A stretch of 64,000 nt of DNA, taken from contig JAMXDE010000004.1 of the NCBI GenBank assembly GCA_026770025.1, positions 62,001 to 126,000 of the forward strand, in the 5' to 3' direction. The notes under the pieces were generated by a model. The model had not been told where the DNA came from and searched no databases. It was given only the letters and a program-made list of their open reading frames with translations. Each line of letters starts with the position of its first letter. The stretch's first letter is position 1. Positions 5,374 through 64,000 of the stretch are shown one piece after another. The stretch is from Craspedostauros australis (Eukaryota; Bacillariophyta; Bacillariophyceae; Mastogloiales; Achnanthaceae). Both the position numbers and the translations under genes were made by a program.

Positions 5374-6855
5374 GTTGTGAATTCGTCTGCGACTTAGTCT
5401 GCTGCTGAGCTTGCTTTGGTGGTGTCAGATGGAGCGAGTGCTCGTGATGACGTGTGAAGCAGCCTCCCGGAGAAGTTGTGAGGAGTTGTGCGAAGAGTCA
5501 ATGAAAAGCAATCGATCTGCTCTGCGGCCGGTGACTTTTGATTTGAAATGAGGAGATTTTGGAGCAGCTTCTGCCTGTGAAACTCAACAAAGCAGATCGG
5601 AGAGTGCTCTACCTACTCCTCTCTGTTGGCAGAGACAGCGGCAGCAACTTGATTGTGTCTTGCTTCTGCTGATCTGCTATGTTCTGCTGTGGATGGGCCA
5701 GCACAGGTATCTATTATATTATATATAATGTATTATACTTGCAACCTGATTGTGGTGGCATCCAATGTAGTTGGTGCCGTCGATAGCGCAGCCGGCAGTA
5801 TAGTCGATTGTACAGTCGGCAGTATAGTCGGCAGTATAGTCGTAGCTGATGGATGAGTTCGTGTTTGTATTCGAGCTGTTGTTGTTGTTGTTGTTCTGAT
5901 TGTGATTGTGATTGTGGTCGAGTTCGTCTTCTTGGTGAATCCCAGCTGAACAAACTCTGCACAAACCGACCTCGGTTCGACTCCACTTTGATGCAACAAC
6001 TGTCGATGCTGTTGCTGTTGCTGTTGATACCAATCAATGGTGATAGCGATGGCAATGATGACAGCAACAACAACAACAACAACAACAACAACCATGAATC
6101 CTGCAAATGGTCGTGGTTGGTGGCAGGCGTTGCTGGTTGCTTCCGTTTCTTCCAACCACCATTCTCGGTTCTTGCTCTCATTCGATCGCCATCCATGCTG
6201 TTTGCTTCTTGCCCATCAACAACAACCTTGCGCACTCCTGTAGGTGCGCACAAGCGCCCGTTATCCACTCCTATCAAAACATGTCGCATGTGCACATGAT
6301 GTACACCTAGCGTCAACACAACTATGAAGTCTGTAAATAGTTTATAAATTCGTCCCCGATCCCATATACACGCTAGGAATATTGTCGGACGACATCGCGC
6401 ACGATCCGTTGAAACGCAGATACCTTAACGCGTGCGAGATCGTTGCCGTGAGTACTTAGATATTTGGCACGTTGGAACGCGCAAGCACGACTTTCATTGG
6501 CGTACGTCTCCGTTCGACAATCCCGCGTGTGCACGACTCCAACCAAGCGCTTCTCTCTATCTTTGTTTGGGAAGGCTATGAACAAATAGGCGGAGATGGA
6601 CTTGCTGAACTTACGTACTGGAGGAAAGGGAGTGGATGGATCCCAGACGACCGAACTCATGGAGCATGGCATATGGTATAATGGATCGTAGAGCATCGCA
6701 CTTTTTGAAAGTAGAGTGTTCAAGTAGGAGGAGGGAGAAAATGAACAACAGCTGGGTAGTTGTCGAGCGCAGTTCTCTGTCAATAGTCCCAGTGCCTCAG
6801 AAAAATCGCATTTGTACAATCTTGACTCTCGAGTACTATTCTGGTTTTGTTGAGC
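5374..6855. other. Intergenic region, repeat-rich
   Basis: This lies between the 5' end of the giant minus-strand gene and the 3' end of the methyltransferase gene. It holds an AT-rich tract (about 5707-5742), a 13-bp repeat (GGCAGTATAGTCG) in three copies near 5793-5842, a GTT run near 5880 and a long CAA/AAC run at about 6061-6093. Several long frames cross it on both strands only because of these runs. A minus-strand frame at 6373-6819 lacks an ATG start and has no recognisable domain. I see no gene I can support. Confidence 0.5.
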
Positions 6856-49531: not shown

Positions 49532-50725
49532 GATGGGATGATGAGCCTCGTGATCTTGGTGGCGCCGATATCGCTTCTGATACGATTAGAGTCGAGTAGA
49601 GCAGAGCATGTCCTTGCGCTTACATCTGCACTTCCACCTGCGCTTCCACTTCCAAGGATGCTTGCGCTTGCTCGTCGCAATCAGTATCATCCACGACAAC
49701 ATTCCTTCTATGCTCTGTTTTGCTGCGTCCAACCCTCCTCTTGCTGGCCCGAAACAATCATTGCCGCAAGGTACTTCCTCTTGTTGTGTCGTCTTCCTCC
49801 TTTGATTCTTGGTAGCGACGTGGTGTTGGGATTGTTGGCATACATACGTTGGCCATCGGTTGGCCATCGGTTGGCCATCGGTTGGTTCTTTCTCTTCATT
49901 CTTGGTCGGATGGAGGGAAATGATGTTGCTTCCCTCTTCTGTAATTTCACGCTTGCATCGAGCACCTCCAAATCTGGGAGAAGTACGACTACGGATTGCC
50001 TTGTGTCTCCGAAGACGTACACTTTGTGAGTGTTGGTAGTCGCGAGGCAACAATTTCACAACTGGCAAGCCTCGCTCATCCTGATCCCAAGTCGCGATTA
50101 CGAATCCTGTGGAGTATTGACAACACAGACTCAGCGGACTTTAGTCCCGTGACACTACTGACTAAATGCATGTTTCACAGAACTCGTTATGAAATTATGA
50201 CCGGTCTCCCACCAGCGTTCAAAACCGGAACAACAAATCCATACTACTCCGATCGGTTCAGATTTGTGTGCGACATGGGTTGGGACCGTATATAACGGAA
50301 AAGGGTTATATTGGGATATGCGGTAAATTAATTACTTGTAACTCCCAATACTTCTTCCCGAGTGTTGCAGGCTCGCAAGCACGTCATCCAGAACCGCATT
50401 CTTGTCTGAACGGCGTCGCAATACTACGTCATCCTGTGACGTCATCTGTTCGAACTGTTGCTCAATGAGATACCTTCATATTGGTACCATATCTTCGATC
50501 AATTTGTCTCAGTTCTGTTCGTGGTGATCATGCGTGTTGATGCGAGCTTCGTGCGCAGACAACGGCGCAGCTCGTCGCGGCCTACGAGTCATCATTTTGG
50601 GAGTGACCCGCTGCACATCATGATCGCAATTACAGCATTATAATCCATACTGAATTAGACTACACAACTACCTACCACCACTATCAAGGTGCTCCATCTT
50701 ACTGGGATCATCGCATTCTCCTTAT
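49532..50725. other. Intergenic region upstream of the seipin-like gene
   Basis: It probably holds the seipin-like promoter. An 11-bp unit (GTTGGCCATCG) is repeated three times at about 49851-49886. No other gene is supported. The TTAT at 50722-50725 is the left target duplication of the TIR element. Confidence 0.4.
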
Positions 50726-50891
50726 GAGCCCCCCGAGTGAGTCGACCTGCACTTTGTCCTGGGACTCAACACCTTTTTTCTCGGATATCCAAACAAATCA
50801 CATATTCATAATCCCCATATTCTAAAACCAAATACTGATTCAAATCACTTTCCGGTTAGACCTTAGTTTAAGTTTTATGGTCCCATCAAGG
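50726..50891 (+). repeat. Left terminal inverted repeat of the DNA transposon
   Basis: 166 bases matching the reverse complement of 62461-62626 with about nine substitutions and no gaps in my alignment. Confidence 0.92.
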
Positions 50892-51394
50892 TGCTAATTT
50901 TTAGACTGATTTAGGGACTCAGCCTTTGACAGACGACTACATCGATCCAATTTAACCCTTTGCTGTTCTTTGTTTCAGCAACTTTGTTCCGATTTTGAAT
51001 TGTTTAGTCTCTTTTTCAGGTGTTCGGACGACACCATCCAACAGTCCCTCCACGATAGCACTAGTTGTGGAATGTTGGGGGAAGCGGTGAACCTACATTT
51101 ACGTTACTTACACCATGTGCTTGTCCAATCCGTCATCGACGTCACGAAATTGGATACTTCGTCACGAAACACCAATGATATCACGATGCGCAACATCATC
51201 AGGTCTGCTTCGTCGTGGCGAAGTGGTTGAGTGGGGTTGGTACTCCTCGAGTGTTTTGTGTCGTGGTCTTTTTGGACAGTCGGTACAATTGTTGGTAAAT
51301 CTCCACATCCCCCAACATGTGAGGCTGGCCGAGAGTGGCAAACTCGACACACCAACATGGAAGTGGAGCAACACCAAAAAAATACCACAATGGC
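50892..51394. other. Left internal arm of the DNA transposon
   Basis: About 500 bases between the left TIR and the Copia insertion. Only short frames (for example 50970-51230, plus, about 86 codons) with no domain. The last five bases (ATGGC) are the Copia target duplication. Confidence 0.45.
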
Positions 51395-51553
51395 TGACAG
51401 CTTTCACTGTACTTCTTACCTCTTTACTAATCGTATTAATCAAATACTGGTCGGAGATTGTCCTCGGACAACTCACAATAAAACAACAAGAGCTCCGACC
51501 AGGGCACGCAACAACGGGCCAATCAGTCTCAGTAGTTACTTGCACGTTTGACA
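51395..51553 (+). repeat. 5' LTR of Copia element B
   Basis: A 159-bp direct repeat of 57068-57226 (constant offset 5673) with TG...CA ends. It is short for a Copia LTR. Confidence 0.95.
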
Positions 51554-51607
51554 GATTAAGAGTCGTGATATCACCAACAAGCTTATCACTATACCACCAC
51601 TTCCACC

Positions 51608-52984
51608 ATGACGAGAACGATCAACAACAAGGCAGTAGCAGGATACATCAAGGAGCTTGTTGGGCTGAACGAGCAGCAGATGTCCTTTATCACGAGCACT
51701 CTTGGACGCATCGACAATGCCATCCGCCTCACCGACCAAGAAATCGTGGACTCTTTGGTTCATTCCCCATCTCTCAATGCCGTCAACATCGGTAACGTCA
51801 TGCGCATCTTCGAATACGCACGTCACAACGCCGTCGACGACACAACGAACTGGGAAGCCATCCATGACTTCAACGAAGGTCGCAACTACAAGCTGCCAAC
51901 CATCGACTCATCAGTGGCGATCTCGACGACCAAACTTCGTCTCGAGATGGACATGAAGACAGCGGCCGCAGCCGTGCAAACCAACGAGATGGTTGTGCGC
52001 TCGCCGCAACGTGGAGGCGCAAGCATGCGCTCTCCATCAACACCTACCAACTGGCGCTATGACAAGGTTTCCATCCCCGATCCTCTCCCTTTCTCCGGTC
52101 TGAACGAAGACTGGCGCGATTGGAAGATATCGTTCGAGCGGTCCATGGTGACCACTCGATTCTCCAAGTACATGGACCAGGAACGTCCAGCTGGATACGA
52201 ACAGCACGTTGACCGGCAATTCCATTCGGTCATCAACGCACTGACCTATCAGGGAGACGCCGACTTCCTCGTCTCCGCCAACCGCAACAGCGGACACGAT
52301 GCCTGGCAAGCATTAATCCAGCTCTACGAATCTGAGGAGAACCAGGCGCAAACAGTCGCCGAGCAAGAAGTCTACGTGACTCAGCTCTCCTTCGACGGAT
52401 CAGAGCCATTCACCAAGTACGTCAACGCGTTCTCCAAGTCTATTCAAGTCATGAAGGACAACGGCAAGGACATGACGGAAGAGCACATCATTGCGCAATT
52501 CTTCCGCAATATACGCGATGAACGATACATGAGCGAGGTGTCGCGTCTCCGAAAGCAGAAGCTCACCTTCACAGAGATCCGCAAGGAACTCATGGAACAT
52601 GATCGTGTGCTGACCAACATCGAAGCACATCAATCTCCTCGGCGCAACCGCCGACTCCAAACCAAGCAGGGCGGACGCAACGACCGCAAGCGACCACACG
52701 ATGGCCAATCCGGCGACCGCAAATCCGCGCCCGCATTTCGGCTGTCGGACAGCGTCTTCAGACGCCTCCCAGCCTGCCAACAGGCACTCCTTGTGGAGGC
52801 CACGCGGCACTACCGCAAGAACGGGAAGAACATCGACGATGAGACCCTCAAGAAACTCAAGCCAGCGGAGTTCGCACAGAATCTCCAGCTGCCGCTCACA
52901 CGCAGAGCAGCCAAGCGCGACCGACCCCACGGGACCCCGACTCGCGACGGCAAGAAACGCGGATCATACGGCGACAGCTCTTGA
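51608..52984 (+). CDS. Copia element B gag
   Basis: A 458-residue frame. It has an N-terminal helical region, then a conserved capsid-like core (WRDWKISFERSM, HDAWQALIQLYESEENQ, FTKYVNAFSKSIQVMKD, FRNIRDERYMSEV) like the Copia gag domain, and a basic C-terminal tail suited to nucleic-acid binding without a clear CCHC knuckle. The following pol frame is in the same register, consistent with the read-through mode described for some LTR elements. Confidence 0.85.
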   Translation: MTRTINNKAVAGYIKELVGLNEQQMSFITSTLGRIDNAIRLTDQEIVDSLVHSPSLNAVNIGNVMRIFEYARHNAVDDTTNWEAIHDFNEGRNYKLPTIDSSVAISTTKLRLEMDMKTAAAAVQTNEMVVRSPQRGGASMRSPSTPTNWRYDKVSIPDPLPFSGLNEDWRDWKISFERSMVTTRFSKYMDQERPAGYEQHVDRQFHSVINALTYQGDADFLVSANRNSGHDAWQALIQLYESEENQAQTVAEQEVYVTQLSFDGSEPFTKYVNAFSKSIQVMKDNGKDMTEEHIIAQFFRNIRDERYMSEVSRLRKQKLTFTEIRKELMEHDRVLTNIEAHQSPRRNRRLQTKQGGRNDRKRPHDGQSGDRKSAPAFRLSDSVFRRLPACQQALLVEATRHYRKNGKNIDDETLKKLKPAEFAQNLQLPLTRRAAKRDRPHGTPTRDGKKRGSYGDSS

Positions 52985-53101
52985 CAACCAACGACGGGCA
53001 CACTTCGCCGTCAGTCTGAGGTTGCCATCCGTATCAAGCCCCGCAACTGTAGGGGGGAGACGCGTACAGCTGCAGAGGGACGGCCCAAGCGTGCACGCAT
53101 T

Positions 53102-56100
53102 GTGGAACCCCGAGTGCCGCCGTCGAGCATAACCCACCCGCGTGTCGAGCACTGTCTTCGCAGGGCAAGAGTGATGGACGGTAGCCAGGGCTACATCATA
53201 TTGGACTCAGGGGCGGACGGCGACATCGTGCATGAATCCGGATGGGTGGTGACCCGAAGACACAAGCAGACTTTCCAAGCCCGCGGGGCGACAATGGAAT
53301 CACACATCGAGACCTTCCAGATGGTCGACGCGGTGGCAGCGTATGAATCACCCATAGGGGATGTGGTTCTGATCAAGGCAAACTACGTGGCGCTCGATGA
53401 GCACCCAAGGCAGACAGAATCATTGATGAATACTCATCATATGCGCGCGTCCGGACTGAACGTCTACGATCGCCTACTTCAACACCAAGGGCAACAGCGC
53501 ATCGCGTCAGGGGGGATCAGTATACCACTGGCCAATCATGACGGCAACACTCTGCGCATACCCATACGAAAACCGACGGCTCACGAGCTCGATAACACTA
53601 CTAAGCATATCACGATATGCGACAGACACCAACGACTTCGACGTAACAACCAACGGGTTGACTTCGGCGAAGTGTTCAAGCATCTCCCACAGCAGGTGGT
53701 TGAGAAGACCATGGCGGCATCAACCCAGCTGGCGGACAAACCGATAGAGGCCGAGTCAAGACTCATCCCACGGCAATACCGTACACAGCGCGCAGGGGTA
53801 TTGCAACCACTCCGACTTCACGGAAGAGTCGACACCGATCCATTCTTTTCCACCATCCAGTCGATCCGACACTACAATTGCTTTCAGCTGTTCATACACA
53901 GCGAATCCAAGCTGATTTGGACCAAGCCACTCCGACGGGAGGCGATGGCGCCAGGGGCGCTGACCGACTTCATCCTCAACGTTGGAGCACCAGACCTGCT
54001 CATTTCCGACAATTCACAAGTGCAGTCGGGCAAGGCATGGAAGGCGGTAACATCCAAGCACATGATCAAGCATTCGTTCACAACGCCAATGAACCAGAAC
54101 CAGAACCGAGCGGAACGCGCTATCGGAGACATCAAGCGGCACGCATACCAACTCATTTGGGCGGCATCTGCGCCACTCGAATTCTGGTGCTACGCTGTTC
54201 AGCACGCTGTCGACGTTTGGAACTTCACGGCCAAGGCAAGCATCCAATGGAAGACGCCGATCGAACTTGCTCGGGGCAACACACCTGACATCTCTATGTT
54301 TCGTTTCACTTTCTTCCAGCCGGTGTGGTTCTTCGAACCGATGACGAAGTTCCCGGCTCATCCCTTCAAGCCAGGATATTTCCTGGGAATCGCGTGGGAT
54401 CATGGCGATCCATTTACATATCACATCTGGTCACCGAAGGCCGACGACATCAAGAAAGGCACAGCACTCGTCCGGAACATCGTGAAACCGCGAATTTTGG
54501 AGAATGCAGAAGTGCCACGGATCACTGACGAGGAAATACAGCGGATCGCTCGACTCGACCTCATACACTACAAGACCAGGGGCGCTTCGGGGGACAGGGC
54601 ACGCACCAAGACGATGCCAGCTGAGCTCGCTCGACAGGTCCGCGAGGCCATCGACGCGATTGCTGTGCGGTCAGGGGCGGCGGCTTGCATTCCGGAACCT
54701 GGACCCGAACGGGTCAGGGGCGTCGAGGTCGACGCAAATACTACTCCATCGGAGGATCAATGGTTTGGGCGGCCGAACATCGTACCAGATGACGATGGCA
54801 TGCGCGGACAGAACGCCGCTGGCATGATATCGGATGACGACGACGACGGCGACGACATTCCAGATGATGACATCTCAGTGGAGTCCGACGGCTCGGCGGC
54901 GGAACCTATGCCGGATCCACCGGAGCAGCGGACTCAGGGGCGTCAAAGCTCTCTTGCAGAGCGCGAACACGATGAAATGTTTCAGAATCAGGTCGACAAG
55001 GTCGATCCAAATGAGCAAGACATCACCAGCATCATCGGACACAGCTTCCGAGACGGACATCTACACCTTCACGCGAGGTGGGACAGCGATGACACACAAT
55101 GGTTTCGATATGATATCCTACGGGCGGATCATCCGGAACTTGTGGCTCGCTACATTGTCGCGAACAAGCCTACTCGACACGGACGGCACAATCGTCAATC
55201 GCAAACGATGTTGAAATGGGCAACCCATGCACTACGAGCGATCAGACGGCGCATCCAACGAATCGAGCGTACGCATCAATTCTCAATCGATGGCAACGAC
55301 AACGTGACAATCATACGACGGGTCCGGCCAGGAAAGAAGAAGCAGAAGAAAGACTTCTTCGCAACTGTATTTCAATACGGAGTCGAGGTTCCACGCAATA
55401 TGAAACACGCTTTGCAACTCGACCAGGCCAACAACAACGACATGTGGAAGGCAGCAGCCAAGAAGGAGATCGATGCACTCATCGAGCTCGACTGCTTCGA
55501 ATTCCATCCGTCAACACATCGACCATCATCCGAATATCAGAGCACGAAGCTCAGACTTATCTTCGCAGTCAAGCAGGACCTGCGACGCAAGGCACGACTC
55601 GTGGCGGGAGGACACCTCATCGAGCTGGCAGACAACATCCGTGTCTACTCATCGACAGTCAAGTCGACCAGCGTGAGAATACTCGACGTCATCGCCGACG
55701 CGAACAAACTGGACCAGCTCTGCGGCGATGTCGGCAATGCATTCGTCAACGCATATACCAACGAGAAGATATATGCAACAGCAGGCAAGGAATTCGACCA
55801 CCGGGAAGGCCAGACAATCGTGCTCAAGAAAGCATTGTACGGGCTCAGATCCAGTGCACAACGATTCCACGCACACTTCGCGAATACACTATCCTCGATG
55901 GGATTCAAGCCATCACGACATGACCAGGACGTCTGGATCAGACTTCGTGACGAGTCCGGATATGACTACATCTGCACACATGTGGACGACTTCAAGATCG
56001 TGGCAAAGGACCCACAGAAATATATGAAGTCCATCCAGCAGGTATACACGATCAAGGATATCGGACCTCCCAAGTACTACCTTGGGAACGACTATTCCAG

Positions 56101-57070
56101 GAATGCCAAGGGCAAATGGAGCGTTGGATGTGACAAGTACATCGCCAACGCACTGGACAAAGTCGAGCGCCAACACGGGCAGCTACACAACCAGCACGTT
56201 CCTATGCGGAACAAGGATCATCCAGAGACGGACGATACCGAACTACTAACACCTGACGAGCAACAGCAGTTCCAGCAGCTCATCGGCATGCTGAACTGGG
56301 TCGTTCAGCTCGGACGTTTCGACGTCGCATTTGCAACTTCTTCACTTTCACGTTTCACTGCATCACCACGCAAGGGACACCTTGTGCGAGCGCTCAAGAT
56401 ATGGGGCTATCTCAAGCACAAGGCAACTCTCCGCACGCAGATCGACTCCAAGCCAATGATATTCGACAACTTTCCATCGACTCCATCCAATCCGAAATTG
56501 GTGGCGCAAATGAAGGAGGAATACCCAGAAGCTATGGAGGACCTCGACAGCGGTGCTCCAGCGGCAATCTACCCGGAACTACCAATGTATGCATTCGTGG
56601 ACGCGGACCATGCTCATGATTTGGTCACGCGGCGATCCAACACCGGCATCATTCTTTTCCTTGGCAGAACGCCTGTCTACTTCTCCAGCAAGCGGCAGAC
56701 ATCGGTTACCACATCGACATACGGCGCGGAATTCAATGCACTGCGCTCGGTGACTGAAGAGATTATTGCACTCAGATATGCTCTCCGATCGCTGGGAGTT
56801 CATGTCAAGTCTCCAACCATCACATTCTGCGACAATAAGGCTGTGATCTCGAACACGACGATCGCGGACAGCCTGCTACAAAAGAAACACGTGGCAATAT
56901 CGTTTCACAGAGTGCGCGAGTCCGTTGGAGCCGGGATATTGGTCCCAATATACGTTCCTTCGAAGCTCAACTTCGCGGATATGCTCACAAAGGCACTGGC
57001 ACGGCCAGATCTAACCACTTTTGTCACAGCCCTGTTCTACGGAGGTCATCCTCAAGATCAAGGGGCGTGA
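53102..57070 (+). CDS. Copia element B pol
   Basis: About 1320 residues. Parts in order: aspartic protease (LDSGADGDIVHESG) near 53.2 kb; an integrase core (about 53.8-54.4 kb, with LLISDNSQVQSGK and NRAERAIGDIKRHAYQL); an acidic linker; reverse transcriptase (about 55.4-56.1 kb) with the active-site motif HVDD where most Copia have YVDD; and RNase H (about 56.55-57.0 kb, with FVDADHAHD and TYGAEFNAL). The frame ends within the first bases of the 3' LTR, an unusually compact layout. Confidence 0.9.
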   Translation: MEPRVPPSSITHPRVEHCLRRARVMDGSQGYIILDSGADGDIVHESGWVVTRRHKQTFQARGATMESHIETFQMVDAVAAYESPIGDVVLIKANYVALDEHPRQTESLMNTHHMRASGLNVYDRLLQHQGQQRIASGGISIPLANHDGNTLRIPIRKPTAHELDNTTKHITICDRHQRLRRNNQRVDFGEVFKHLPQQVVEKTMAASTQLADKPIEAESRLIPRQYRTQRAGVLQPLRLHGRVDTDPFFSTIQSIRHYNCFQLFIHSESKLIWTKPLRREAMAPGALTDFILNVGAPDLLISDNSQVQSGKAWKAVTSKHMIKHSFTTPMNQNQNRAERAIGDIKRHAYQLIWAASAPLEFWCYAVQHAVDVWNFTAKASIQWKTPIELARGNTPDISMFRFTFFQPVWFFEPMTKFPAHPFKPGYFLGIAWDHGDPFTYHIWSPKADDIKKGTALVRNIVKPRILENAEVPRITDEEIQRIARLDLIHYKTRGASGDRARTKTMPAELARQVREAIDAIAVRSGAAACIPEPGPERVRGVEVDANTTPSEDQWFGRPNIVPDDDGMRGQNAAGMISDDDDDGDDIPDDDISVESDGSAAEPMPDPPEQRTQGRQSSLAEREHDEMFQNQVDKVDPNEQDITSIIGHSFRDGHLHLHARWDSDDTQWFRYDILRADHPELVARYIVANKPTRHGRHNRQSQTMLKWATHALRAIRRRIQRIERTHQFSIDGNDNVTIIRRVRPGKKKQKKDFFATVFQYGVEVPRNMKHALQLDQANNNDMWKAAAKKEIDALIELDCFEFHPSTHRPSSEYQSTKLRLIFAVKQDLRRKARLVAGGHLIELADNIRVYSSTVKSTSVRILDVIADANKLDQLCGDVGNAFVNAYTNEKIYATAGKEFDHREGQTIVLKKALYGLRSSAQRFHAHFANTLSSMGFKPSRHDQDVWIRLRDESGYDYICTHVDDFKIVAKDPQKYMKSIQQVYTIKDIGPPKYYLGNDYSRNAKGKWSVGCDKYIANALDKVERQHGQLHNQHVPMRNKDHPETDDTELLTPDEQQQFQQLIGMLNWVVQLGRFDVAFATSSLSRFTASPRKGHLVRALKIWGYLKHKATLRTQIDSKPMIFDNFPSTPSNPKLVAQMKEEYPEAMEDLDSGAPAAIYPELPMYAFVDADHAHDLVTRRSNTGIILFLGRTPVYFSSKRQTSVTTSTYGAEFNALRSVTEEIIALRYALRSLGVHVKSPTITFCDNKAVISNTTIADSLLQKKHVAISFHRVRESVGAGILVPIYVPSKLNFADMLTKALARPDLTTFVTALFYGGHPQDQGA

Positions 57071-57226
57071 CAGCTTTCACTGTACTTCTTACCTCTTTAC
57101 TAATCGTATTAATCAAATACTGGTCGGAGATTGTCCTCGGACAACTCACAATAAAACAACAAGAGCTCCGACCAGGGCACGCAACAACGGGCCAATCAGT
57201 CTCAGTAGTTACTTGCACGTTTGACA
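57068..57226 (+). repeat. 3' LTR of Copia element B
   Basis: A 159-bp direct repeat of 51395-51553. A short purine-rich run (AAGGGGCG) immediately precedes it. Confidence 0.95.
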
Positions 57227-57311
57227 ATGGCCATCGAACGGTATGCTTGGCGCCGCAACAACCAGCCGGCCAATTCAAGATTCAAGCATATCGCCGTCAC
57301 CGCCATGCAAC

Positions 57312-57860
57312 CCTTGGTGGGTGGACGAGCGGAGGCGGGAAGAGGGGTTGATTTGGGGCCGTCGTAGGCCCCAGAAATACAGCCACAATTTGGCTCCAAA
57401 TCGGCTCGTTGGTTTTGGCCTGTGTGTGGCACACACAGGCCATATCAGCACCTATGGATGCACAAGATGCCTCAAAGAGGCCAAGACAAAGGCACCCTCG
57501 AAGTTTGAGGCTTGCGGAGCACCGGGAAGGTGTCCGCGCGGAGGCAAAGGTGGTTTTGAGGAGTTTTGGTTGGGGCTCGCCTGGCACCGGTCGCGTGGCT
57601 TTGGCGGTGAGGGGCGATGGGACGACGCCCCTCAATCGCCAAGCCACCCATACAAGGTGCGTGCGACATCAATTGAAGATGCACGTCGTGAAGTGTGCGC
57701 CATGGATATGGTCTACAAGAGGCTGCAGCTGACCATATCTGCAGAATGGTCGTTGCTGGTGGGAGCAAAAAATACACCACCACATCATCATCTGGAGGTG
57801 TACCACGTCGGCCATGCACTCCCATCCCATTCTGGATGCATCCGCGTGTCGCCATGGAGT
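57312..57860 (+). repeat. Dispersed repeat, copy 1 (inside the DNA transposon)
   Basis: From TTGGTGGGTGGA onward this stretch aligns, with roughly 60-70% identity by eye, to 63459-64000. Best blocks are around AAGTTTGAGGCTTG (57.5/63.64 kb), GCCAAGCCACCCA (57.64/63.78 kb) and the GGTGTACC end block. An open frame at 57243-58079 (278 codons) crosses it, but the second copy does not keep a matching long frame, so coding is doubtful. Confidence 0.6.
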
Positions 57861-58411
57861 GTGGAAATGCACGAGGAGCGCTTGGAGGTGCTGAAAGGAT
57901 CGTATGGACGAGATACGGATCCAAATCTGCATCACAAGCTGATTGAAACCGTTTTTTGGAAATCACTCTGTTTCAGTGCGTGGATGCATTGCTGCATGCA
58001 GAGCCGATGTCTGTGGCCATCCTTCATGGAGCGGATAGCTGGGGGGTATGCAGAGCGAATGGTATGCACAGTTTTCTGAAATACAAGGATGATGATGATG
58101 ATCATGTGTGCTCATTGGAGGGCAACATTGTGGCATCAGCATTTTTTCCGAATCCGCCACACAAAACACAGCAAACCAACATGACTTCCAAAATATTTTC
58201 TATACTCATTTAACTTCGATATTCTGATTAAACAATAGTCAGGCGTCAGAATGCAATGTTTAGATTTAATTTTAAGCGATGTCTTGTTGAGATATAGCAT
58301 GACAAGCAGATATTGGATGTGTTTTTTGGATGGCCTCTAGACTCGTTGTAGTAGCATGGCCTGCCTCCCACAAAACTCCACAACTAGTGTTATCGCGGCG
58401 ATGCACATCCA
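57861..58411. other. Internal stretch of the DNA transposon, 3' of the transposase gene
   Basis: It probably holds the 3' end of the minus-strand transposase transcript. A GAT microsatellite of about five units lies near 58087-58102. No supported gene. Confidence 0.4.
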
Positions 58412-61400
58412 TCACAAAATTTCCGTCCCATCATCCAACACAGCCTCACTTTCTGTGTTGGCCTTCAGTGTGTCAGCATCACACCACATCTGATGATCCA
58501 GCTCCTCCTCCTCTCTCTGCAACTCCTTCTCTCTTCGTTCCTCCTGTGTTTCAGCTGGCGCATCGTAGGTCGCCACAATTGCAGATGCTGTTGCTTTGCT
58601 TGTTGGGTTGGTGTTGGTGTCGGTGTTGGCTTCCGCCTTGATGAGAGCGGCCTCCTTCTTGTCCTTGCGTTGTTTGGCGTTGTACGCTGCAGACAGCGAC
58701 GCTTTCACGCGCATGGGGTTTGCGTGCAGTTGTACGTACCAGTCAGTTTTGGTCCTGTTGTCGTCCATCAATTGTTCGTGTGCTTCGTGTTCGGATGGTC
58801 TGTTTTTTGGGTCCTTCGCGGACACTTCACTGATGTCCTTCAACTTGTCCGCGATGTAGTCTGGTAGTTCCGCTGGTTTGCGCGTTGTTTTGCTCGCCCA
58901 GCCTGGCACTGCGAGTGGAGGGTGTTCGGTTTCGGCGGTCTGGTCTTGTAGCGCTGTGGTGTGATCGGATGGTAGATGTTGTTGTCCGTCTGCAATGGCT
59001 TTGCCGAACGCCAGCCCCTTGCTCTCTGCCGCTGTGCGCCCGAGTTTTCGCGTCTTGTCCGTCTTCCTGAACGATTCGGACGTTATCGGCAGCTTGTCGG
59101 ACTTGTGTGTGTGAACATCGGCAACGCCCAGCTGGTTGATGATCCAGCCCTCCCATTCGGTGCTCTTCACCACGACGTCTTCAGTGATGCCAGATGCAGC
59201 CACCAACCGCGCCTGGTCATCATCATACTTCACCTCGTGAGTTTGACGTACCTGTTGTCCGTTCGCGCGGAATCGTCGTTTTGGTGCGCCAGGAAGCGTG
59301 GTGATGTTGCCTTGGAGGGATGACGCGTTGACCAGTACCGTGGTGGTGCCCGCGATGTCACCTACTTTCAGTGCAAGGAAGAGTTGGAACGGGGTCTTGA
59401 TGTCCTTGCCACTTTGCACGTATTTTCGCAGTACACGTGTGATGTACGCGAAGTGGGTGTCCAGCATGCTCTTACCAGTTTGGGCCTCCGTGTAAATCCA
59501 TGCGATGATTTTGGCCGCCTTTCGTGTCGCAAGGTTCTTGTTGAGTACCGATGTGATGAGCGCGATGTGCTCGTGACTGGCGAAACAACACGCGTTATTG
59601 CTCTGTAGGATGATTTCAGTCACGGATGGGAGAATGTCTTTGACCGTTTTTTGCAGGATGTCAAGTAGTCCACCAACTTGAAGTGTGTCTTGTGTCGGTC
59701 TTCCGCCGACCACAATGTCAATGAACTGATAAGTAAAAATGTCGTTGCGACATGTGATGACCATCGCTCCAAGCAGTGACATTCCCTTCTTCCCCCAATA
59801 TTCTTGTTGGGCTTCGCTTTGGCCTGTTGGTAGAATTTTTTGCTTATGGTCGAGTACCACATAGGCTCTTTCAGGCTTATCATTGAGCTGGGATTGATAA
59901 AAGGCGATTTGTCGGAATTGAACTTTTGCACGCACTTTGTGAGCCATGTAGTTAACAATTTCGTTGGCGAATCCCGGCGCCGCCACAAGCATTGATTGCA
60001 ATTCGTCCTTGTGTTCTGCGAGTTCGTTGTCCTTAAGCATTTCGACGAATGGGACAAAACGATCATTCACAAATCGCATTGCTGATCCACAACGGTTGCA
60101 TACTTTACGTGGTTGTTCGGTCGCGGTGGTGGGAGAAGTGTCATTTGTGACGGTTGGCGTGTCGCTTTTGAGAGTGTTCTTCTTGCGCTTGTGCTTGTTG
60201 GTGCGTGGTTTGCGTTGATTGGTTGATGTGGTTGTTGCCTTTTTCTTCTCCTTTCCGGTGATGAGTGCGAACGCAGCCGAATGCATGGGGTCATCACACT
60301 GAAGCTGCATGTGCGACGCGGTGAATTCCCATTTGAGGAACACGACAAGCAGCTCGAGTGCATGCAAGAGGGAATCGGCTGTGCGCACATGCTGCGCGAT
60401 CACGTCATCTGGCTCGTCGTTGTGGTTGTCGCTCTCGTCATTGGCATCGTTTTGTTCCTCCCCGTCTGTTTCATACTTAGCCTTCAGTAGGTCTACTAGG
60501 CGCGAAATTGCCTGTTTGAGTTTCTCCGTCGCCATCCAGAAGTAACTCTCGAAGGAAGAAAGGCCCGTCTTGATCTTGCTTTTGCGTGTTAGTAGGTGGG
60601 TCATGGTGGTGAAAGTGGGCATTCCCACTGGGCGGTTGGTCGTAGACGAGTACATGTCGAATAGTTGTTCGATAGTCGTGCTTCCTCGATCGAACACCGG
60701 CACATTTTCAAAATTGACACCGCCATACTGTACTGTGTGACTCAAACCTGCCTTGTATGTTGCAGTGGTCATGAGGAAAGACGTCACACCAGACAGGTCA
60801 CAGGCAGGCACACGATACTGGAGAACTCTTGGCGGGATGATTTTGCCGCGGCTGAAAATTTCAAAAGCATGTCGCAAGGTTGTTAGTTGACTCCGGGTCA
60901 TAGTAGCGCGTGCAGGCTTGACATGAATACGTTGTTCCTCTGGAAGAGTCTCCACATGATGAGACAGGATTGCAGAGCTGTTAGTGAATGTCGTAGATGC
61001 AGCAAGCACAGCCCTGGATGCGTTAGCCAGTGTCTTTTCCCCCCTCACACAGAGGGTGTATAGATTCGGACCGAGTGTAGTTGGTGGAAGGTCCACGCGA
61101 GCACGGACAAACGCCACCACCTGTTGCATCTGGCGAGTTGGCAATGCCTCACAAGGGAGCAAGACACCCCAGAGTGCAGTAACCACAGTAACCCATACGC
61201 GTGTCACGTCCCACCATGTTTGCCTGTCACGCTGGCCGCCAAGCACGAATCCCGTGGGAGGCATGGCGTTAAACACGTCCATGTTGATCTGATCCGTGAG
61301 CTCCTCCATCACACGGATCACAGCATCACGTCTCCAGCTCCCCTCCTCTGCTGTATCACCCTTGAACTTGCCACCCCTCCTGCCCCTGCCGGCGCGCATC

Positions 61401-61939
61401 TGTTCCTCCTTGTCGTCCATGTAGGTGCTGTCACTGTCATGGGAGGGATCCGCGTAGCCCCCAGCAACAACAGCATTGCAGCGACGAGGGAGCCTCGCTG
61501 GTGGGGCAGGCTCGACAGGTGGTGCAACGTCGGCCACAGCAGGCGGGGGTGGCGCGTTCACGACAACGCTCACCGAAGTCCCATCGCCAACACCTCGTCC
61601 CTCGGATCGCACCCTGACGTTGGAGTTGTCGTAGGCGCTTCCGTTGTTGTCGAGGATGTGAACGTACACATGTAGCTCGCGAGCGTGCGCATGTGTACCG
61701 TTCGGGACGAGGCTGCCATCCGCTGCAAGTATTGGCTTCACATCGATCACTTGCGTGATGGTGCTCGGCTTCCTCAACGCAGCAGATGGCTTGTCAGGCA
61801 ACAGTTGCTCGACAGTAGGCAGCAAGTTCCCCTTCGAATCGAAAGGAGGAGCAGACATGGGGTCAACAGAACGCAGTTTCTTACTGGGGGAGGGGTTAGC
61901 ATCCTTGGAGTGGGCCTTGGCAGCGGTAGAGGTAGACAT
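58412..61939 (-). CDS. Transposase-like protein of an unassigned DNA-transposon family
   Basis: The ATG at 61939 (MSTSTAAKAHSK) gives 1175 residues, stop TGA; the frame is open further upstream but has no other ATG. A disordered N-terminus is followed by a basic region and a helical domain. A CNRCG patch then precedes the likely catalytic core: VVLDHKQKILP (D697), an EYWGKKGMSLLGAMV stretch, IILQSNNACC (N781) and YTEAQTGKSMLDTHFAYI (E818), then RKYVQSGKDIKTPFQL. This resembles a transposase-like family I recall from animal genomes, in which the second motif reads DNAxCY, so N781 replaces an expected Asp. The C-terminus is charged and coiled-coil-like. It is the only long gene of the TIR element and lies on its minus strand. 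Confidence 0.75.
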   Translation of the reverse strand: MSTSTAAKAHSKDANPSPSKKLRSVDPMSAPPFDSKGNLLPTVEQLLPDKPSAALRKPSTITQVIDVKPILAADGSLVPNGTHAHARELHVYVHILDNNGSAYDNSNVRVRSEGRGVGDGTSVSVVVNAPPPPAVADVAPPVEPAPPARLPRRCNAVVAGGYADPSHDSDSTYMDDKEEQMRAGRGRRGGKFKGDTAEEGSWRRDAVIRVMEELTDQINMDVFNAMPPTGFVLGGQRDRQTWWDVTRVWVTVVTALWGVLLPCEALPTRQMQQVVAFVRARVDLPPTTLGPNLYTLCVRGEKTLANASRAVLAASTTFTNSSAILSHHVETLPEEQRIHVKPARATMTRSQLTTLRHAFEIFSRGKIIPPRVLQYRVPACDLSGVTSFLMTTATYKAGLSHTVQYGGVNFENVPVFDRGSTTIEQLFDMYSSTTNRPVGMPTFTTMTHLLTRKSKIKTGLSSFESYFWMATEKLKQAISRLVDLLKAKYETDGEEQNDANDESDNHNDEPDDVIAQHVRTADSLLHALELLVVFLKWEFTASHMQLQCDDPMHSAAFALITGKEKKKATTTSTNQRKPRTNKHKRKKNTLKSDTPTVTNDTSPTTATEQPRKVCNRCGSAMRFVNDRFVPFVEMLKDNELAEHKDELQSMLVAAPGFANEIVNYMAHKVRAKVQFRQIAFYQSQLNDKPERAYVVLDHKQKILPTGQSEAQQEYWGKKGMSLLGAMVITCRNDIFTYQFIDIVVGGRPTQDTLQVGGLLDILQKTVKDILPSVTEIILQSNNACCFASHEHIALITSVLNKNLATRKAAKIIAWIYTEAQTGKSMLDTHFAYITRVLRKYVQSGKDIKTPFQLFLALKVGDIAGTTTVLVNASSLQGNITTLPGAPKRRFRANGQQVRQTHEVKYDDDQARLVAASGITEDVVVKSTEWEGWIINQLGVADVHTHKSDKLPITSESFRKTDKTRKLGRTAAESKGLAFGKAIADGQQHLPSDHTTALQDQTAETEHPPLAVPGWASKTTRKPAELPDYIADKLKDISEVSAKDPKNRPSEHEAHEQLMDDNRTKTDWYVQLHANPMRVKASLSAAYNAKQRKDKKEAALIKAEANTDTNTNPTSKATASAIVATYDAPAETQEERREKELQREEEELDHQMWCDADTLKANTESEAVLDDGTEIL

Positions 61940-62460
61940 GGTGAAGTTGTTGCTGTAGAGTATAGTTGTTGGCTGGTTGGATGTGATGAACTGCACTGGT
62001 CTGAGATAAAGTGAGGAAGGAGAGCATGCGATGATGGGTCGACCATTCGTTGGCAACAACAACAACTACTACTACTACTACACTACCACTACACTACCAG
62101 AACGAGCACTAACATTGAACACAAGAGCGAGCACGCATGGAATTGGCGAGGAAAGTTGTGAAATGGAGCGAAAGTGTGGCGATGATGTGTGAATGGTGAG
62201 GGGGTGTCGATGATGTTGGATGGGATGTGTTTTGTGTGATGTGTTTTGTGTGATGCGTTTTGTGTGATGTGTTTTGTGACGAGCAAAATGTGAGATCATG
62301 CGCCACATGCTAACGTGTATTTAACGCGTACCAACCGAACGACATCTTCGACACCGTCTTCGTGACTGAGTACCATCCGATAAATAATCAAGAACATCAC
62401 AGAACCTTCTGAGAAACAAGTAGGAGTTTCATGGGGTTCGACCCATACGACTCAAAAATG
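61940..62460 (-). promoter_or_regulatory. Right internal arm of the DNA transposon, upstream of the transposase
   Basis: About 520 bases between the transposase ATG and the right TIR. It holds a CAACAACTACTA run (about 62054-62083) and a 14-15-bp TGTGATGTGTTTTG tandem repeat (about 62224-62280). Promoter function is inferred from position. Confidence 0.45.
62224..62280. repeat. TGTGATGTGTTTTG minisatellite
   Basis: About four tandem copies of a 14-15-bp unit, upstream of the transposase gene. Such subterminal repeats can serve as transposase-binding sites in some families; here that is only a possibility. Confidence 0.7.
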
Positions 62461-62626
62461 CCTTGATGGGCTCATAAAACTTAAAACAAGGTCTAACCGG
62501 AAAGTAATTTGAATCATTATTTGGTTTTAGAATATGGGGATTATGAATATGTGGTTGGTTTGGATATCTGAGAAAAAAGGTGTTGAGTCCCAGGACAAAG
62601 TGCAGGTCGACTCACTCGGGGGGCTC
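62461..62626 (-). repeat. Right terminal inverted repeat of the DNA transposon
   Basis: 166 bases forming the inverted partner of 50726-50891, followed by the TTAT duplication. Confidence 0.92.
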
Positions 62627-62630
62627 TTAT

Positions 62631-63458
62631 GTTCATTCAACGTCCTTGTGTGCATCAAATTAGTGTTTGCTTTGCATTGCGCATGTCAGGAATCGAGGGT
62701 ACGACTATGTCGGAAAGATACCCATGATTGCCGCACCTCCCAAAATTATCAATCACGACTGAAGTCAACTCTTGTTGATCACATCTTTGAGTCTTGTTGA
62801 TCACACCCGTGACTCAAGACAAACGTGACTGATATCAGTCTTGACAAGAAAACAAGCCTGTCCTCTCTGAATCAAGAAAAGTCACGACATCGAAAAACAG
62901 GATGTCCCAACATCAAGCATGACATCGCGACGATCCAAACAACGACGTCACAGGAGAAACATCGATGACCAGCAGGTCTGTGATCACCCCATCTGGAGAA
63001 CCGAAACACGTGCCACCTGCGGACTAGAACAATTCAGAAAGGACATCAAGCTTGACACCAATCGTAAGAAAAGGTGTCAAGAGATCAAGGGCGAAACCTG
63101 TGACAAGTCAAGCGCATGACTGCGGAATCGTACCGCATGAATGTAGATGATGATATGCATGATGAGATGCATGATGGAGATGCCTGATGAAAGGATCGAT
63201 GAATACAAGCGAGAATGCATGATGAAGACAGCATGAAGGCAACAGTTTGACATGATGTTACTGTGGATTATACATGCTATGGCAAATGGAATTGGAAGAG
63301 CTGAAGATGTTATGCTCACAGTTCTGAGAATGCAACAACAGGAATAGGTAATCAGATACAACTAATAAGGTTGGGTTACCCGGATTTCTCAACAAACACT
63401 ACAACAACCATCAGTCCAATACAATATCTAAGCACATAGGCGGAACCACCAAGGAAAG
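62631..63458. other. Intergenic region right of the DNA transposon
   Basis: It contains short repeated TTGATCACA and GACTCAAGAC/GTCTTGAC-type words (about 62770-62850) that make small inverted repeats, and an ATG/CATGATG-rich stretch (about 63130-63230). No supported gene. Confidence 0.4.
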
Positions 63459-64000
63459 ATTGGTGGATGGATCAGAGGGGGCTGCCAGAGCGGTTGATTT
63501 GATGCCATGGCAGGCCCATGGGCAAAGGACACGATTTGGAGGCAAATCTACTTGATGGATATGGGCTCTGTATGGAATATGCAGATCATGGCAATGATTA
63601 TATGGGCAAGACGCATCCAGGAAGGTAAGGCAAAGGTGCCCACGAAGTTTGAGGCTTGGGGATGGTCTGGAAGGTGGCAACCGGAAGAAACAAGTGGAGG
63701 GCAAGAGTTTGTTGGTAGATGGCAGTGCACGCATCCTGTGACTTCGGCAGTGACGGGCACCATGCACAAATCACCCAAAATGGCCAAGCCACCCATGCAA
63801 GATGTGTTCAGTATGAACTCAGGGGTTGGTGGATGAAGCAGCAGAATGCTCTATTTTCTGGAAGAGGCTGCATCCAGGAATGCACACCAAAGGGTCGTTT
63901 TTGGTGGTCGCAACAGCAGCAGAATGGCATCATCATACAGAGGTGTACCCTTGGAGGCATGAATGTCCAGCTCATTCTGCATGCATCAGTATGTCACCAG
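63459..64000 (+). repeat. Dispersed repeat, copy 2 (runs off the window)
   Basis: Diverged copy of the repeat at 57312-57860, in the same orientation. The alignment still holds at base 64000, so its right end lies outside the window. Confidence 0.6.

Follow-up and report, generated by a model that had tools for sequence, protein, structure and literature searches.

The window, a 64,000-nucleotide stretch of Craspedostauros australis DNA analyzed here as a whole, contains an insertion of 11,901 bp with TTAT at either flank (Table 1). Its inverted arms (positions 50723 to 50891 and 62461 to 62629) are 169 nt long and 94% complementary, and the inverted ends (TIRs) proper are identical at 157 of 166 positions. 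The initial annotation, made from the letters of the sequence, had described both the TTAT flanks and 166-bp inverted ends with about nine differences, in agreement with our comparison. It had also described an 11.9-kb element. This is correct for the span, but the transposon itself measures 6,064 bp once a nested Copia retrotransposon is subtracted. The 1175-residue gene that had been listed is indeed open on the minus strand, and upstream of it lies a 14-bp tandem repeat that possibly provides candidate subterminal sites.

Table 1. Features of the interrupted transposon, in window positions
Feature	Position	Strand	Basis
TSD TTAT, left	50722..50725	.	single TTAT in paralogous empty site
Left TIR, starts GAGCCCCCCGAGTGAGTCGACC	50726..50891	+	inverted-end comparison
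Transposon non-coding arm, part 1	50892..51389	.	dN/dS 0.72-1.04 across arm, six frames
ATGGC duplication (5 bp), Copia left	51390..51394	.	flank comparison
Nested Copia LTR retrotransposon, 5,832 bp	51395..57226	+	LTRs, gag/pol profiles
Copia gag ORF, TGA end	51608..52984	+	PF14223, E 6e-7
Copia pol ORF, frame shared with gag	53102..57070	+	RVT_2 PF07727, E 9.8e-18
ATGGC duplication (5 bp), Copia right	57227..57231	.	flank comparison
Transposon non-coding arm, part 2	57232..58411	.	dN/dS over arm
Transposase gene, 1175 aa + stop	58412..61939	-	open frame; purifying selection
Putative catalytic Asp 3, D827, in GKSMLDTHF	59459..59461	-	motif conservation and predicted fold
Invariant E818	59486..59488	-	alignment
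Catalytic position 2, residue 781, AAT (Asn)	59597..59599	-	comparison with other elements
Putative catalytic Asp 1, D697, in LDHK	59849..59851	-	motif conservation and predicted fold
Putative HHCC zinc-type motif H543, H553, C614, C617, upstream of core	60089..60313	-	invariant in alignments
14-bp tandem repeat upstream of transposase gene	62214..62283	-	repeat detection
Right TIR	62461..62626	-	inverted-end comparison
TSD TTAT, right	62627..62630	.	flank comparison

The identification of the nested element as Copia held on every feature considered. Like other Copia retrotransposons, it has LTRs, a copia-type gag, an RVT_2 reverse transcriptase, and a 5-bp target duplication; it differs from them by its short LTRs (51395 to 51553 and 57068 to 57226, 159 bp each) and by one in-frame TGA (52982 to 52984) between gag and pol, beyond which pol stays open in the same frame. 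This TGA could be either a readthrough codon or an inactivating stop. Since the two LTRs are identical, the Copia element arrived recently, and since it sits inside the transposon, it is the younger of the two.

Comparison of copies across the genome yielded dN/dS values of 0.18 to 0.34 for the transposase gene in 13 pairwise comparisons, which share sequences and are thus not independent; these low values point to selection acting on the gene across copies. For the 1.85-kb arm, dN/dS was 0.72 to 1.04 (18 tests, six frames), and its open reading frames (ORFs), of at most 404 aa and mostly on the strand opposite to the transposase, vary from copy to copy. We call the arm non-coding on these two grounds, and a second gene within it was rejected because the ORFs are inconstant and the ratio stays in this range in every frame. 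Judged by these substitution patterns, the 1175-aa protein is the product of the one gene in the element found to be under purifying selection.

The window element belongs to a high-copy, recently amplified family. When the left end was searched against all 74.8 Mb of the genome, with 40 of 266 first-look candidates scored, at least 44 matches came back, and most of these pair up as bounded copies. We fetched 19 places with paired ends as well as the single-ended C20; both ends were readable in 18 of the 19, C54 being left out of the duplication count on account of its eroded left end. Together with the window copy and loci L038 and L043 to L046, this gave 24 bounded copies, which rules out the possibility, raised in the initial annotation, that no other copy in the genome has the same ends. 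All 24 carry a perfect 4-bp duplication, always of the form NTAN, and none of these duplications extends to 5 to 8 bp. The duplicated sequences were ATAT (five copies), TTAT (four), CTAG (four), TTAG (three), and ATAA (two), with GTAT, TTAC, CTAT, ATAC, CTAC, and TTAA seen once each. TTAT, which had been taken as the target, is therefore right for the window copy but not as a general target; it is one instance of a TA-centered NTAN rule. The ends read GAG..CTC in 23 of the 24 copies, L038 having AAC/GAC starts.

Seven uninterrupted copies of the window's subfamily measure 6,068 to 6,090 bp and the remaining uninterrupted GAGCC-ended copies 6,024 to 6,100 bp; L038 and C15 are 4,545 and 7,728 bp long, and the others, which carry inserts, 12 to 14.6 kb. 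Without its Copia insert, the window copy is 99.0% identical to copy C42a, and the closest pair among nine compared copies (C51 and C42b) reaches 99.5%. At the protein level, 37 of the 39 genome matches scored (from 559 candidates) have no internal stop, and each of the 39 is almost full length with at least 83% identity. A DNA pattern for the third catalytic motif, GK-[S/T/C/R/W]-xx-D-x-H-F, gave 221 exact matches, against none for its reversed control. GKSMLDTHF was the commonest form among the 100 of these 221 places that were listed, which also included GKSALDGHF, GKSPVDGHF, GKCPIDTHF, and GKSRLDTHF. The pattern FGKxGM(S/T..) matched 45 times, versus 0 in the control. Six copies (C65, C12, C25, C40, C4, and C33; loci L020-L021, L024-L027, and L029-L034) are 13 to 15 kb long and have ORFs of 1819 to 2080 aa, which look retrotransposon-like by their size; nested insertions look frequent in the family.

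To seek empty sites, the two flanks of the window copy were joined into one query of 296 positions. Of 552 candidates 40 were scored, and 29 of these rows cross the junction; the best of the scored rows (C2:193725-193922) has 93% identity over query positions 1 to 200 of 296. The paralogous repeat at G000:C2:193700-193950 runs uninterrupted across the window junction and has TTAT once, and the paralogues L048 and L049 are likewise contiguous, with TTCT and TTGC at the junction. The joined flanks of copy C48 matched from end to end at two paralogous places, C16:1160621-1160908 (93%) and C48:133802-134091 (89%), each of which carries GTAT once. Within C9, a diverged-subfamily copy (ends GAGCCCGATC) is nested in the right-hand portion of a GAGCCCCCC copy, with ATAA at either flank; at the corresponding place, GGGCTC-ATAA-AACTT, the window has a single ATAA (62474 to 62477). 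The empty sites and the C9 nesting together demonstrate, at the level of sequence, a 4-bp staggered insertion. The reading of the element as a TIR DNA transposon is thus borne out by bounded copies, duplications, and paralogous empty sites. The same evidence, with the 221 third-motif matches, refutes the view that an unrelated inverted duplication happens to enclose a host gene, a view for which we found no support and to which we assign practically no weight; the initial annotation had itself named an unrelated inverted duplication as a refuting case. The window flanks themselves (50576 to 50725 and 62631 to 62680) belong to a dispersed repeat that hosts the transposon. In L019 at about 6190 to 6215 (C44:388564-388568), two transposon ends stand back to back with one ATAT between them (GGGCTC-ATAT-GAGCCCCCC), which is an insertion at or beside the target site of another copy.

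The transposase-like motifs that had been seen in the protein gained support from conservation, selection, and predicted fold. Alignment A2 comprises 18 rows, 11 with a full core and seven fragments without one; in the 11 full cores, the first and second Asp are 83 to 84 residues apart and the second and third 44 to 190. All five rows of alignment A4 share the Glu and the first and third Asp, and four of the five have the second Asp, the window being the exception. L036, L037, L039, and the window protein share 30 to 39% identity with L035, and the diverged relatives retain the first and third Asp, the Glu, two residues of QSDNA (S and N), and the upstream H..H..C..C. Every full core except the window's has the second Asp. 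Position 781 is Asp in all 21 of the other elements whose core could be read (C65, C4, and C54, for which the motif search gave no full core, are outside this count) and Asn in the window copy (D781N). Judged by this substitution, the window copy is probably dead; since the second Asp has been lost and Copia lies in the arm, it is probably inactive on its own.

Two AF2 models were built from alignments of the window and locus proteins. The larger model (residues 205 to 1100) had a mean pLDDT of 59.6 and the model of the C48 core, from 16 sequences, one of 65.8, with ten-residue blocks mostly at 66 to 92 and one loop below 50. Both models show the RNase H order beta1-beta2-beta3-helix-beta4-helix-beta5-helix. 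In the C48 core model, the first Asp (D181) lies in beta1 (175 to 183), close to its end; the second (D265) is the last residue of beta4 (259 to 265); and the third (D311) is in the helix 308 to 326, which follows beta5. Among the 50 of 784 PDB matches listed for this model, MVV integrase was best (E 3.9e-3), and HCMV terminase nuclease, MutSbeta, RNase HI, RuvC, and, at rank 29, Hermes also appeared; the larger model matched Mos1 first (E 9.1e-3). The listed PDB matches are weak, none having an E value of 0.001 or below, with TM-scores of about 0.2 to 0.4 and unrelated folds lower down, and the top ones are mostly RNase H-like folds. In a viral structure library, an unnamed phage protein was the best match (5.1e-4), and an RNase H came next (1.4e-3). 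The 1175-aa protein is accordingly predicted to be a transposase of the DDD type whose core (D697/D781/D827) is RNase H-like. Since the invariant Glu near the third Asp stands immediately after beta5, the triad may instead be DDE.

We thus regard the insertion, with a probability of about 0.87, as one copy of a high-copy autonomous DNA transposon of about 6.07 kb that has 166-bp TIRs starting with GAGCC and one gene for a 1175-aa DDD transposase, and that was later interrupted by Copia. As expected from its class, the transposase would bind the TIRs, cut the DNA at the ends marked by GAG, and attack the two strands of an NTAN target at positions 4 bp apart, which would generate the 4-bp duplication; movement would proceed by cut-and-paste rather than by copying. 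In the window copy, Copia later interrupted the non-coding arm, and the second Asp has been lost (D781N). With its ends intact, this copy would move only with enzyme supplied by other copies.

A profile search had been proposed for the protein, and no named superfamily was matched in Pfam or NCBIfam. More broadly, Pfam, NCBIfam, and PHROGs profiles and PDB sequences gave no credible match to the transposase, and Pfam searched with 18 family members matched no transposase family; hits to TFIIA (7.5e-4) and Med26_M (1.2e-3), in one of the 18 members each, were set aside as low-complexity. The patterns and tblastn searches used brought up no relatives in viral contigs, bacterial genomes, or phages. 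The motif strings of the transposase were not found in literature text. Similar motifs presumably occur in unnamed proteins of oomycetes and animals.

Several named superfamilies could be weighed against the targets, ends, and core. Duplication of a TA dinucleotide, as in Tc1/Mariner, is at odds with the 4-bp duplication and with empty sites carrying one TTAT or GTAT. Kinship with Kolobok would suit the 4-bp duplication and the GAG..CTC ends, which fit 5'-RR..YY-3', and Kolobok is listed from the diatom Fragilariopsis cylindrus (PMC9587614); we consider it improbable nevertheless, as Kolobok is TTAA specific, whereas TTAA is duplicated in one of our 24 copies, and the C/DxxH signature between the second and third catalytic residues is unconserved in the 11 full cores, with a lone DKKH in L036. 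The same signature, running from the second D to the last E/D and unconserved in these cores, argues against hAT, P, MuDR, and Dada. The CMC/Transib group is defined by C(2)C and H(3-4)H motifs lying between the second and last catalytic residues (PMC12730594); neither occurs in any of the 11 full cores, which argues against this group. Less credible still is a piggyBac relative, even though a DDD-type triad and a 4-bp duplication are common to both and ATAA is printed for one piggyBac element (PMC8634313). The transposon has GAG ends and NTAN instead of TTAA targets, the 18 members have no transposase family among their Pfam matches, and no piggyBac chain is among the best 50 of 784 fold matches.

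Sola offers the closest description. Ends of Sola2 and Sola3 start with GRG or GAG, and the Sola3 target is TTAA. Sola transposases have, to our knowledge, no named Pfam family. A plant TE review characterizes Sola by a DDD type, 4-bp duplications, sizes mostly of 2 to 9 kb, and TIRs of 11 to 1124 bp (PMC10741241); AT-rich 4-bp duplications, ATAT among them, are described for Sola2 (PMC3627910), and the brown alga Ectocarpus has annotated Sola-1 and Sola-2 elements (PMC12477816). The transposon has in common with the reviewed description the DDD type, by motif and predicted fold (D697, D781, which is N in the window, and D827), the 4-bp duplication (24 of 24 copies), the element size (6.0 to 6.1 kb in uninterrupted GAGCC-ended copies), and the TIR length (166 bp). 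Set against the printed description of Sola, it differs in its NTAN target rule. None of the papers searched joined Sola-superfamily DNA transposons with diatoms. On the analogy with this printed description, we lean toward a Sola-type lineage, and an existing superfamily is a likelier home for the transposon than none. That the element could not be placed in a named superfamily, as the initial annotation had stated, thus stands as far as profiles go, but the printed Sola description fits.

An unnamed superfamily is the main alternative to Sola-type placement. Judged by profiles, signatures, and printed descriptions of named superfamilies, the transposon family is likely new, and a new superfamily is possible. 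A DDD superfamily apart from Sola, recognizable by its NTAN targets, its GAG ends, and the HHCC motif that precedes the core, would be consistent with the failure of Pfam, NCBIfam, PHROGs, and PDB sequences to give a credible match, with NTAN in all 24 copies, and with the silence of the viral, phage, and bacterial collections. However, this silence says little because those collections are non-eukaryotic, and the traits tested agree with the description printed for Sola, so that we hold such a superfamily to be doubtful, though well ahead of Kolobok. Slightly more doubtful is its fuller form, a DDD superfamily of its own defined by HHCC followed by an RNase H core, a variable distance of 44 to 190 residues from the second to the third Asp, and TA-centered 4-bp targets. 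Its core motif would read D(H/F)K..(Q/E)SDNA(S/C)CF..TEAQxGK(S/C/G)xxDxHF, and the genome would then hold at least five lineages of it, with more than 200 third-motif matches.

Under the favored Sola-type placement, the family would provide Sola with a sharp rule for its targets and a model of catalysis; if it is not Sola, it would be a new superfamily. Either way, the family is complete and recently amplified, many of its genes are open, its ends are exact, and a target rule and empty sites are available for it. Its transposase is of a type missed by the curated protein profiles searched, and the family makes the chemistry of this type testable. The motif set DHK / QSDNA / TEAQxGKSxxDxHF allows annotation of genes that would otherwise be seen as large unknown proteins.

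Diverged relatives in the genome varied in structure. No long inverted ends were present in the stretches fetched for L035, L036, L037, L039, L040, and L041; L036 and L042 have boundaries in common, but no clear TIR or duplication. L038:2249-6793, a diverged relative of 4.5 kb, has an ATAT duplication and long inverted arms that start with RACCCRGGTCAGTGAGT, and its transposase is split into three ORF pieces. The N-termini of L035, L039, and L042 carry an extra cysteine-rich motif (CxxC...FCxxC type) absent from the window protein. A tandem array of units of about 77 to 80 bp lies beside the diverged transposase gene at L037:421-2461, and about one unit of it was matched in L041. In the window itself, positions 63402 to 63807, about 0.8 kb beyond the right end of the transposon, share 67% identity with its non-coding arm and represent either what is left of a related element or a passenger sequence common to both places.
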